IMG/VR virus record: IMGVR_UViG_3300042402_000440
Span: 1 to 31,163 of that record
Length of the DNA stretch: 31,163 nucleotides
From: a virus
Direction: 5' to 3' (one strand)
Below are positions 5,419 to 31,163 of this stretch, piece by piece (position 1 is the stretch's first letter; every line of letters starts with the position of its first letter). Below the pieces are notes generated by a model that saw nothing but the letters and a program-made list of their open reading frames with translations, made no database searches and was not told the origin of the DNA. The translations under genes were made by a program, and so were the position numbers.

Positions 5419-5840
5419 TCTGCGGCCTCATAATCTGTCCAGTCAGTGTAGAAGTCTCTTTCAATCACTGAATAATTATCATTTTGACAATCTAATCGTT
5501 CTTTGCCAATTAATGTAGCATTGTCACGAAGCCATTTAACATTTAGATATGTGTGTGGCAAACTGGATTCATTAAACTCGTAATGTTCTATTTCAAGATT
5601 GCTGAGCATAGCACCGTGTCCATCAGTTATTTTCATAATGCTATTGAATATTAGTTCTGTGGTTAAGATATCATAATTCAATTCACTAATTGGAAATTCA
5701 ATGAAAGTGTCACCATTTAATTTATATTCAATATTAGGACATAATCCATAACCTTCTGAATTCGAGTTTTTTAGATGCGTATGAAACTCTACAAAATCAC
5801 CGAAACATTCTGCGTAAGTGGAATAAACTCTCGCTTTCAT
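5415..5840 (-). CDS. Hypothetical protein, 141 aa
   Basis: A soluble acidic protein with alternating beta and helical character, many aromatic residues (FGDFVEFHTHL; YNDEF-like composition) and no transmembrane segment. No family is recognised. Its ATG overlaps the preceding stop as ATGA and its own stop overlaps the 51-aa gene in the same way. A promoter at 5870-5898 lies inside the end of the upstream gene and would transcribe this gene with a short leader. A weak GAAAGA ribosome binding site is present. Local base composition is more AT-rich than in the tail genes. Confidence 0.72.
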   Translation of the reverse strand: MKARVYSTYAECFGDFVEFHTHLKNSNSEGYGLCPNIEYKLNGDTFIEFPISELNYDILTTELIFNSIMKITDGHGAMLSNLEIEHYEFNESSLPHTYLNVKWLRDNATLIGKERLDCQNDNYSVIERDFYTDWTDYEAAE

Positions 5841-6166
5841 TCTGCTGTCTTTCTGTGTGTTAAAAATATAGTATAGCAGGGAACGAGGCTGAAGTCAATG
5901 GGTGATTTAGCCAAACTGCGTCGATGCTGTTTTTGCACACGAGTGATTTTGGACTTCTTGCGTTTTGGTTTTTTGCGGATAAGGTATGGGCCTTCGCTTA
6001 TGCCACCCTCAATGAGTTCAGTGGCATCTTCATCTCGTAGCCAATCGAGAAACACATCGTGAAACTTACAAAATAAACCAGCAGTGGGTTTATCTTTATT
6101 CTTAAACTGCTTCCACCTGATTTCACATTGGCAAAGATTATGTAAGTCAATATTTTTAAGTTTCAT
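5837..6166 (-). CDS. Basic hypothetical protein, 109 aa
   Basis: The central part is very basic (KKPKRKKSKITRVQKQHRR, about residues 63-81), suggesting nucleic-acid binding. The N-terminal half contains three Cys (C13, C15, C33) that might bind metal, though no regular CxxC is present. The last 30 or so codons coincide with the promoter for the next gene. No good Shine-Dalgarno precedes the ATG. A possible weak promoter (TTGCTC, 17 bp, TATCAT ending at 6173) lies just upstream. This is the first gene after the large noncoding region. Confidence 0.65.
   Translation of the reverse strand: MKLKNIDLHNLCQCEIRWKQFKNKDKPTAGLFCKFHDVFLDWLRDEDATELIEGGISEGPYLIRKKPKRKKSKITRVQKQHRRSLAKSPIDFSLVPCYTIFLTHRKTAE
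5870..5898 (-). promoter_or_regulatory. Sigma70-type promoter inside the 109-aa gene, driving the 141-aa gene
   Basis: On the minus strand TTGACT (5898-5893), 17 bp, TATACT (5875-5870), with the extended -10 TG and the same CTATACTATA context as the copy at 4505-4533. The start codon of the 141-aa gene is at 5840, about 25 bases from the expected transcript start. Confidence 0.85.
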
Positions 6167-6189
6167 ATTGCAATGATACTGTCTTTAAG

Positions 6190-6955
6190 GTAAAAGAGCA
6201 ACTTCGCTTTCGCTCATTTGCTCTGTTCTGCGTAAAACCACTTCGCCCTCTGGGCTCGTTCGTTTTACTTGAACTTATCTCTCTTTCCCAACTCAAAAGA
6301 AAGAAATCCAAGTGGCTCATTAGTAAATGACAACGGATTGCGAAGCAAGCCAGTTAGGCATTTGCTAATAAGCAAGGCGGACGCAGAGCGTCTGACTTTC
6401 TTATGTGTAATGTATTTGACGCACAATACCACTTTAATCATTTAATCTCACTGACATCTTCATAGGTTAGCAACACGCATTTTTTTATGCGTGAAAACCA
6501 GGACACTATCGTTTATCAAGTTTATACCCTTGGCTGTGTCTGCCTCGTGATATAAGTTATTAAATCCCCACGCCTCTCTTTATGCTTTCGCACCCCTCTG
6601 GGTCCGCACCGTGTTTGACTTAGGCGTGTCCGCCTTATCATAAGGATAACTCATATCATCGTTGCCAATATGTTCTTCGTCAAGCGAATGAGATACTGAC
6701 TACGGGTGGGTCGTGTTTTAACCCCGTTTCTAATGCCTAAGTGGATTTGCCAATAATGCCTGGTTATGATTGCCTGTCACACTTATTTAGCAGGGACCTA
6801 AAATATCAGGGGTAAATGTGGTAAAAGACGAAACCCAGTAAAGACTGGGTTTCTAACAGGGCTCATCTCTAATGGCAATAAGAGATTACTTTAAGTGTGA
6901 CAGCACTAACCAATATCCAGGTAGAATATAACGGAATCTGTCCCTGCTACTATTA
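6190..6955 (-). ncRNA. Candidate large ornate noncoding RNA, about 770 nt
   Basis: No reading frame of note exists on either strand, but stems are packed throughout. Clear ones (plus numbering) are 6195-6201/6218-6224; 6232-6238/6262-6268 enclosing 6245-6248/6252-6255; 6319-6329/6359-6369 enclosing a GGATTGC hairpin; 6378-6384/6388-6394; 6474-6480/6487-6493; 6592-6595/6600-6603; 6618-6627/6733-6742; 6633-6637/6641-6645; 6702-6706/6723-6727; 6830-6839/6844-6853. Two interleaved perfect repeats, 6774-6785/6892-6903 and 6788-6797/6940-6949, imply a pseudoknot. The octamer GCGAAAGC, a GNRA-capped mini-hairpin, occurs twice on the minus strand (6206-6213, 6584-6591), supporting that strand. The 3' end resembles a terminator. 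Size and phage setting recall GOLLD and ROOL RNAs; I cannot show homology. Confidence 0.7.
6192..6224 (-). terminator. Terminator-like 3' hairpin of the large noncoding RNA
   Basis: On the minus strand AGAGCAA and TTGCTCT form a 7-bp stem enclosing 16 bases that contain GCGAAAGC, followed by TTTT then ACC. The T run is short, so termination may be partial. Confidence 0.5.
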
Positions 6956-6956
6956 T

Positions 6957-7439
6957 TTATTCCGACTGAGAGTTTTCACTGTGTATTGTGATGATTTCGT
7001 GATCATTTTCAAATGATACTTGATGGCCTGGATTGAGTTTGGTGCTGTAATGATTGTAGGCTTCGTTATTCGATACTGTGTATTCGCCAGTGTCTTTGTT
7101 GAGATATCGTTGACAGGTCACGCATCGTTTACGCCAATGTAGGCCTAGGCTTCTTGATGGATATAGTTTGGCAGTGACTTCACGACCATTGGGGCAGTGT
7201 TTACCGCAGTCTTCGCAGGTTGTGGCACAGGGCAGTAGGCTAACTAGGGTGACTGCCATTGTGGGATTTGCACCATCTACCAATGTCACAGCCAATTCAG
7301 GTTCTGGATCGCCTTCTACTATGGGTTTGGTTTTGCCACGGGCTCGTCTAATGCCTTCTTTGACAGAGGTGTTGCTGACCTTGTCTATTCGCCAGACTGC
7401 TACTTCACTAAGTTTTCGTTTGAATTCTGCGTCGTCCAT
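6957..7439 (-). CDS. Zinc-binding hypothetical protein, 160 aa
   Basis: Four Cys in two C-x-x-C pairs (CEDC near residue 75, CVTC near residue 107) plus extra Cys and His between them suggest a structural zinc site in the middle. The flanks are polar and without membrane segments. No family is recognised. It overlaps the upstream zinc-ribbon gene by 40 bases and lacks a clear ribosome binding site, so the start is moderately uncertain; the next ATG is about 60 codons in. It is the last gene before the large noncoding region, and an AATAAATAA stretch sits at its end. Confidence 0.7.
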   Translation of the reverse strand: MDDAEFKRKLSEVAVWRIDKVSNTSVKEGIRRARGKTKPIVEGDPEPELAVTLVDGANPTMAVTLVSLLPCATTCEDCGKHCPNGREVTAKLYPSRSLGLHWRKRCVTCQRYLNKDTGEYTVSNNEAYNHYSTKLNPGHQVSFENDHEIITIHSENSQSE

Positions 7440-7603
7440 TGTTCATATAACGGCCACTTGCCTAGGGGGCAATGAGCACCAATTAACCTCGTCTTCAGTG
7501 TCATAAAGCATCCGCATTGTTGACATCTGTTAAGTGTAGTTAGTTCTGGACAACTTTCGCATATAGCCATTCTGGCTTGCTGTAAATCTTGTGGTGCTGG
7601 CAT
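7400..7603 (-). CDS. Small zinc-ribbon protein (DUF6171-like)
   Basis: A 67-aa protein. The start is set at 7603 because that ATG overlaps the preceding stop as TAATG; an open frame to 7678 exists but would run into the upstream gene. It carries CESC (about residues 15-18), CQQCGC (about 27-32), MTLKTRL and CPLGKW. This pattern recalls the small DUF6171-type zinc-ribbon proteins found in many tailed phages. It probably binds one zinc through four Cys. The role is unknown; it sits directly after a holin-like gene. Confidence 0.78.
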   Translation of the reverse strand: MPAPQDLQQARMAICESCPELTTLNRCQQCGCFMTLKTRLIGAHCPLGKWPLYEQWTTQNSNENLVK

Positions 7604-30352: not shown

Positions 30353-31163
30353 TTATACCACACGGTGTCCCCAACGCTGTGGTATCAGCAGGCTTGGGTC
30401 AATATCTTTTCGCACTGGAAATAGGTAATCAACCATATAACCGAGTGCGTCGTTCATATGATCGTAGCCACTGTCTTTGTCAGGCTGGCTGCTACCTTCT
30501 TTGTAGGTTTGTCTTTCTAAACCTTCTATTGTATATTTACACTTAGGATCAATAATCAAGTGTCTAATGCCACTGCTTGAACACAATCTTGAGTTCACTG
30601 CATTGATACGATCACGGACTGGTGTATGGTTACGAGGTGCCTTGACAACGAATCCAGCATTGCTCAACAAGGTGACATCAGTGACACCACCTGCTGATGT
30701 CTTGCGTTGATTGCCAGCAGGATCAGGGTAGACCCAAAGTTTGCTTGTGCCGAAGCGTTGTTTCAGTTCCGTGATCACTTCTTGTGTGTTGGAACTAAAG
30801 ATCCTCACTTCATCTATGATATGTAAGGTATCGCCCATTCTGGTAGCAACCACTGCTGACATTGGGTCTATGTTAAAGTCCATACCAACATAAAGAACAT
30901 CAGGAGTATTACCAAGGTATTTAACTACATTGTGAGCACGATCAAAAGCATAGTAAATGCGTCCTGAGAATGTTTCGAATGTGGCCATATACTCTTGGCG
31001 AAAGGTGCGTTCATCTAAGTCCTTGCGGGCTTGATCAATTTCTTCTTGTGGGACTTGTCCACCATCTAGTGTAGTGTATGAGAATGATTGCCAGTTGGCA
31101 GCGTCATCCTGTGTGTTCTGGTAGATCTCATAAGCCCAGTTACCAATACCTTTGGGCGTGCCG
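30353..31163 (-). CDS. terL: Terminase large subunit, C-terminal part (partial at the window edge)
   Basis: Encodes residues 144-412 of the terminase in frame with the fragment at 1-682; residues 144-227 are present in both because of the terminal repeat. The RNase H-like nuclease domain has its first acidic residue in GMDFN (D238), a later HIIDE strand, and a final acidic cluster near DSGYDHMNDALGYMV. It cuts the concatemer at the start and end of packaging. There is no real start codon in this fragment. The duplicated codons differ at three places, giving one Phe/Tyr change. Confidence 0.94.
   Translation of the reverse strand, partial: GTPKGIGNWAYEIYQNTQDDAANWQSFSYTTLDGGQVPQEEIDQARKDLDERTFRQEYMATFETFSGRIYYAFDRAHNVVKYLGNTPDVLYVGMDFNIDPMSAVVATRMGDTLHIIDEVRIFSSNTQEVITELKQRFGTSKLWVYPDPAGNQRKTSAGGVTDVTLLSNAGFVVKAPRNHTPVRDRINAVNSRLCSSSGIRHLIIDPKCKYTIEGLERQTYKEGSSQPDKDSGYDHMNDALGYMVDYLFPVRKDIDPSLLIPQRWGHRVV
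30910..31163. repeat. Terminal direct repeat, right copy
   Basis: Matches 1-254 with an offset of 30,909 and three substitutions (window positions 31037, 31064 and 31077). Two are silent in the terminase and one changes Phe to Tyr. Confidence 0.95.

Follow-up and report, generated by a model that had tools for sequence, protein, structure and literature searches.

The window analysed here, the whole 31,163-nucleotide stretch of IMG/VR record IMGVR_UViG_3300042402_000440, carries genes for a terminase, a portal protein, a major head protein and a tape-measure protein. Judged by the portal protein, its nearest annotated relatives are DSL-LC06, a phage from a lake (45% identity), and the Pelagibacter phages HTVC202P, HTVC026P, HTVC111P and HTVC112P (43-44%). 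Positions 1-254 and 30910-31163 are near-exact repeats of each other, with the terminase gene at both ends, which suggests that the genome is complete and either circular or terminally redundant.

As originally predicted, no gene lies between positions 6181 and 6956. The region is bounded at 6957 and 6166 by ORFs 6957-7439 and 5837-6166, which share the minus strand with most of the genome, and its stop-to-stop frames reach 69 aa at most. The tested frames yielded no matches to PHROGs or Pfam, and the decayed coding sequence that the prediction had proposed to look for was not found in them. Folding of the minus strand (6167-6956) gave -241.6 kcal/mol and a z-score of -7.4 against dinucleotide shuffles, compared with -3.6 for the plus strand, in keeping with the many clear stems described earlier, and the individually named stems were found as well. 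The 7-bp stem around a 6x6 loop is formed by GUAAAAC/GUUUUAC closing GAACGA/GAAGUG (plus-strand coordinates about 6233-6269), and the terminator-like stem with its UUUU lies at 6189-6223. Minus-strand windows of 200 nt across the region had z-scores of about +0.1 to -3.4, which is low for a genome with a mean of -0.70 (sd 1.24) and neither unique nor extreme. Energy alone is therefore no proof, and comparison and covariation have to decide.

Searches against Rfam revealed no relevant family, either in the window at the gathering threshold or in 5700-7440 at E up to 10, and the related loci and the DSL-LC06 region were likewise without match. This agrees with the earlier suggestion that the RNA may be a new class. 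Group I and group II introns were rejected, with no match above the gathering score and no gene interrupted; the one group-II-D1D4 match in the 5700-7440 search (13.6 bits) is located inside a gene. ARAGORN detected no tRNA or tmRNA genes in the window, bearing out the statement that neighbouring tRNA genes are missing, and 11 of 12 related loci were without tRNA as well. The tRNA-like domain and tag ORF of a tmRNA, including a permuted one, were not detected by ARAGORN, and a CRISPR-like array and a tRNA-linked GOLLD were considered and set aside.

Covariation in relatives is strong, and the RNA nature of the region, as structured RNAs on the minus strand, is well supported. In this respect the original prediction that this part of a phage genome encodes large structured noncoding RNA was confirmed, and the search for covarying pairs in homologues that it had called for was successful for RNA1, for the type 1 RNA described below and for the pair formed by the window and DSL-LC06. 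The view of the region as one large RNA had to be revised: an internal terminator and two TAAATA boxes divide it into two units, a small RNA of ~130 nt with its own terminator (RNA1) and a separate RNA of ~540 nt (RNA2). The features are as follows, in window coordinates.

6954-6960, minus strand: box ATAAATA, T4-late-promoter-like, putative RNA1 promoter; TAAATA is found here in nearly all RNA1 relatives
6823-6953, minus strand: RNA1, structured small RNA of ~130 nt (covariation, model R1, fold z-score -3.2)
6871-6878, minus strand: apical loop of RNA1, UUGCCAUU, with complementarity to the UGGCAA elements in the leader of RNA2
6830-6853, minus strand: RNA1 intrinsic terminator hairpin, followed by GUCUUUU; the stem covaries
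6784-6790, minus strand: second box CTAAATA, putative RNA2 promoter, also found in relatives
6734-6774, minus strand: RNA2 leader with four GGCA repeats (GGCA excess), the site of a tiny ORF in relatives
about 6190-6729, minus strand: RNA2 of the window (~540 nt, z-score -4.5), large and structured, with an end-to-end homologue in DSL-LC06
6708-6725, minus strand: RNA2 hairpin GGGUU-AAAACAC-GACCC, identical in DSL-LC06
6541-6660, minus strand: long helix in the middle of RNA2, which the two homologues form at matching positions when folded independently
6523-6549, minus strand: RNA2 conserved stretch GAGGCA..CCAAGG..AUAAA in the DSL-LC06 alignment
6233-6269, minus strand: RNA2 7-bp stem with 6x6 internal loop, compensatory change in DSL-LC06
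6189-6223, minus strand: RNA2 intrinsic terminator GAGCAA..UUGCUC, followed by UUUUAC, with a counterpart in DSL-LC06

About 20 distinct RNA1 sequences were recovered from related phage contigs by pattern scans and by an alignment-based scan with the upstream 160-aa protein; four IMG/VR relatives reached via this protein match the window over no more than the initial ~210 nt of the region. All of the about 20 sequences contain the TAAATA box or a close variant and a strong intrinsic terminator, and in the window the putative promoter box shares bases with the stop codon of the gene upstream. RNA1 is built from a closing helix, three hairpins and the terminator. The closing helix AGCAGGG/CCCUGUU is replaced by AGCAGAG/CUCUGUU in L056, and the hairpin that carries the loop UUGCCAUU or a near variant has the stem AUCUCU/AGAGAU in the window and UUCGCG/CGCGAA in L064. 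In an alignment of 16 sequences, 90.2% of cells were paired, compared with 34-46% when the partners were slid, and 12 pairs changed on both sides (53 double-change cells vs 17 in shuffles). The covariance model R1 scored 137.9 bits on the window, itself a training member, and recovered L081, L144, L151 and L152, none of which belonged to the training set. This match and the terminator place the window in the RNA1 family. R1 was found in one copy per record in nine small-phage records and had no match in the large-phage records searched. The protein encoded upstream of RNA1 (6957-7439 and its relatives) is strongly variable apart from invariant cysteines (CxxCG and CxxC), and we regard this cysteine-rich protein as a candidate RNA-binding partner.

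The leader between the two RNAs is rich in GGCA, with 68 occurrences in 15 phages vs 4.5 expected from mononucleotide shuffles. In many relatives it is a tiny ORF starting with AUGGCAA, in many large phages a short ORF ends at the start of RNA2, and in L003 a whole ORF is inserted between the RNA1 terminator and the second TAAATA box. Part of the GGCA excess could stem from AAG-GCA codons of these leader ORFs. Complementarity suggests that the RNA1 loop UUGCCAUU may pair with the leader's UGGCAA elements. L134 (CUGCCAUU with AAUGGCAG) and L151 (AGCCAUU with AAUGGCU) preserve the complement, and L064 and L089 do not preserve it in full; because the RNA1 loop is nearly invariant, the case for pairing is based on two or three variants. 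The window has ten WTAAATA boxes, every one on the coding strand, and several stand immediately upstream of a gene start. We infer from their likeness to T4 late promoters that the TAAATA boxes may act as promoters for late expression. ATAAATA boxes of this kind stand upstream of genes in the 31-kb phage, in whose partial annotation no polymerase or sigma gene was recognised, which raises the question of who reads them.

Searches with the window's RNA2 by BLAST or nhmmer among the fetched loci and GenBank phages at first returned nothing. Three IMG/VR matches to the exact motif AAGGCGGACACGCCTAAG were rejected as chance occurrences in apparently coding DNA, and a scan with the 109-aa neighbour protein for RNA2 relatives recovered only a shared promoter region. 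At 5848-5898 the window has a sigma-70-like promoter (TTGACT N17 TATACT, then TATTTTTAACACACAGAAAGACA), a stretch that is kept at about 87% in the otherwise different phage loci L157-L159. The RNA2 homologue was reached via the portal protein, in an unannotated 755-nt gap (573-1327) of phage DSL-LC06 (OR003941.1). This phage is a metagenome-assembled genome from a freshwater lake for which a new family was proposed, and the accessible part of its source paper describes no ncRNA (PMC10611076). DSL-LC06 resembles the window in its RNA2 homologue, the comparable position and the terminator, and also has GGCA repeats, but differs in that RNA1 was not detected.

The alignment of the two RNAs spans GGGGUUAAAACACGACCC through the terminator. 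Their consensus contains 75 pairs, 17 of which are changed on both sides, compared with 0-2 when partners were slid, and part of this compensatory excess is expected since the consensus was built from the same two sequences. The stem GUUC/GAAC of the window becomes GUCC/GGAC in DSL-LC06 and is continued by GUAAAAC/GUUUUAC in the former and GCAAAA/UUUUGC in the latter. The final terminator stem is retained with a largely different sequence (GAGCAA/UUGCUC vs GGACAG/CUGUCC). Folded independently, the two RNAs reached z-scores of -4.5 (window) and -4.6 (DSL-LC06) and agreed in the long central helix and in similarly placed 3' hairpins. Support for the window's RNA2 structure thus comes from one homologue; the two sequences are the only members of this family (type 3), and a profile made from them recovered nothing else among the fetched loci.

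In sister phages, the slot behind RNA1 is occupied by RNAs that are mostly mutually unalignable. The commonest, type 1 (~400 nt; L001-L005, L007, L014), takes the same slot as the window's RNA2. Its conserved motif had 87 IMG/VR matches, of which inspection placed about 75-80 in the expected context; 28 matches in bacterial genomes were in chance contexts only. Among 34 type 1 sequences, 95.7% of cells were paired (30-43% in slid controls), 45 of the 71 pairs showed changes in both partners, with 233 double-change cells vs 64 in shuffles, and the helices of a pseudoknot covary too. Type 1 is distributed from 30-kb relatives of the window up to 364-kb contigs, including phages of more than 100 kb with T4-like genes, where SbcC/SbcD-like and baseplate-hub genes are close by. 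In many loci type 1 is adjoined by a gene for a SegE-like GIY-YIG endonuclease, upstream in large phages (e.g. L026, L028, L061, L085) and downstream in small ones (L002, L005, L007, L014). In alignment A4, which comprises L056:4860-5291 and 33 other type 1 loci, a GGAACC..GGUUCC hairpin is flanked by two direct repeats of 7-8 nt. These repeats vary together (ACAUAAAG, ACAGAAAG, ACAUGAA, GCAUAAU, GGCGAAAG, CCAUCAAG, GAUUCAAG), with a mean shared length of 7.5 vs at most 6.6 when partners were swapped.

Type 2 (L008, L095) has only the 5' module in common with type 1 (27 bits, model R2). Two further slot forms without detected similarity had no Rfam match and, for the two tested, none among GenBank phages. 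They are located as follows.

L135:3940-4540 and L142:3940-4400: one further RNA2-slot form
L134:1650-2160 and L144:4290-4800: the other further RNA2-slot form

With filters off, the type 1 models scored 5.5 bits (R2, 5' part) and 5.2 bits (R3, core) on the window, which leaves its RNA2 outside type 1. Local alignments of the window's RNA2 with types 1, 2, 4 and 5 were not convincing against mononucleotide shuffles; the best among the matches listed, with the type 4 RNA of L142, scored 308 against a shuffle maximum of 309. The RNA1 region is 86-89% identical to that of the window in L095, L007 and L014. Since L095 nevertheless carries type 2 and L007 and L014 carry type 1, the exchange appears to be fairly recent.

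Comparison across these phages shows two conserved predicted RNA structures, separate putative terminators and an exchangeable second slot. We consider it likely that the region is a two-RNA phage cassette on the minus strand, consisting of a small RNA and an exchangeable large structural RNA expressed late, in the conserved order late box, sRNA, GGCA leader, RNA slot and terminator. RNA1 would start at the TAAATA box and stop at its own terminator, and RNA2 would start at the second TAAATA box and comprise the GGCA-rich leader, the structured part of ~540 nt and its own terminator. To judge from the T4-late-like boxes, both would be made late in infection. The functions of the two RNAs are a matter of inference. 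Because two relatives with a variant loop (L134, L151) retain the complement, we propose that RNA1 might tune the RNA2 transcript; tentatively, pairing of the loop with the leader (GGCAA/AUGGCAA) may control how the leader ORF is translated, or how RNA2 folds or is processed. By analogy with GOLLD and ROOL, RNA2 could conceivably be an abundant structural RNA that self-assembles or holds a component of the phage or the host, a reading we regard as rather doubtful. Similarly speculative is the idea that 30-kb pelagiphage relatives and phages of more than 100 kb with T4-like genes draw on a common pool of interchangeable large structured RNAs, plugged into a conserved sRNA-controlled cassette, and that these RNAs are new classes and possibly RNA-only assemblies or ribozymes.

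The location between same-strand genes, together with an internal hairpin and U-run that could attenuate, might point to a cis-acting leader, that is, a long 5' UTR or attenuator in which the RNA1 terminator attenuates and folding of RNA2 controls the 109-aa gene and those that follow. We consider this unlikely, because RNA2 has a terminator of its own immediately ahead of the next gene, as in DSL-LC06, because relatives with the same RNA have different downstream genes, and because type 1 is found downstream of different genes in large phages. The single copy of type 1 in all 24 records and the strong conservation of its structure across wide divergence argue against RNA2 types being intron-like or homing remnants, or active forms, that spread with GIY-YIG genes at no benefit to the phage. 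Such a mobile element would account for the endonuclease gene adjoining type 1, for different RNAs in one slot and for one RNA common to very different phages, but it is improbable given that intron models found no match and that no GIY-YIG gene adjoins the window's RNA2.

It is very improbable that the cassette belongs to a known large-RNA class, such as GOLLD, ROOL or similar, diverged beyond recognition by Rfam. While size, phage setting, dense stems and modular build would fit, permissive Rfam thresholds give nothing in the window or its relatives, there are two units, their conserved and variable parts are placed opposite to those of GOLLD, and the window has no tRNA genes. Decayed coding sequence or a structure-rich spacer arisen by chance is hardly credible: the 200-nt fold scores that are not extreme in the genome and a leader that looks like a degraded tiny ORF are in its favour, yet the tested frames give no protein match and the strong covariation in RNA1, in type 1 and in the window/DSL-LC06 pair contradicts it.

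The cage of GOLLD is a homo-oligomeric 14-mer; its 3' part is conserved, and proximity to tRNA genes is frequent, not universal. ROOL, found in phages and prophages, is large and structured, contains multiple pseudoknots and has a very abundant transcript. Few natural RNAs are as elaborate as GOLLD and ROOL, for which we know of no function. GOLLD has been described as an ornate RNA of phages and prophages, about 800 nt long, whose modular build combines a conserved with a variable part, and like ROOL it forms RNA cages in vitro (PMC12286853). The cassette resembles GOLLD in size, phage setting and the possession of conserved and variable parts, but it is the 5' unit that is conserved and the 3' unit that is exchanged, and neither a match to the Rfam model nor a nearby tRNA gene was found in the window. 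With ROOL it shares a pseudoknot, present in type 1, the relative that occupies the window's slot; it differs in forming two separately terminated RNAs instead of one, in a window without tRNA, and the Rfam model of ROOL had no match in the window either. Without an Rfam match, the cassette is neither GOLLD nor ROOL by homology. Of the likeness to these classes that had originally been noted, size and phage setting hold, and homology does not.

The lytic phage ICP1 has a gene-free region of ~1 kb that yields a very abundant RNA of ~800 nt and has no tRNAs nearby (PMC7567579). By its description this RNA is similar in scale and setting, and the accessible part of that paper describes no two-unit structure, unlike the cassette. 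According to the same part, P1, P7, N15 and P4 have antisense RNAs that bind leaders, and these and the PLE IIR transcript are small RNAs complementary to leaders (PMC7567579). RNA1 likewise is complementary to a leader, with a pairing suggested by two or three covarying variants, but compared with the antisense RNAs as described there it has its own fold and intrinsic terminator. No description of the cassette was found in the open-access literature; closed-access reports might exist.

The locus adds several structured phage RNAs that are absent from Rfam; one of these is type 1, with its covarying pseudoknot, present in about 75 viral contigs. Different large RNAs take one genomic slot behind a common small RNA, and as they replace each other at one locus they probably do the same job. 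This exchangeability offers a handle on their function, and box-driven late expression, the GGCA elements and the upstream cysteine-rich protein are pointers for the search for partners.
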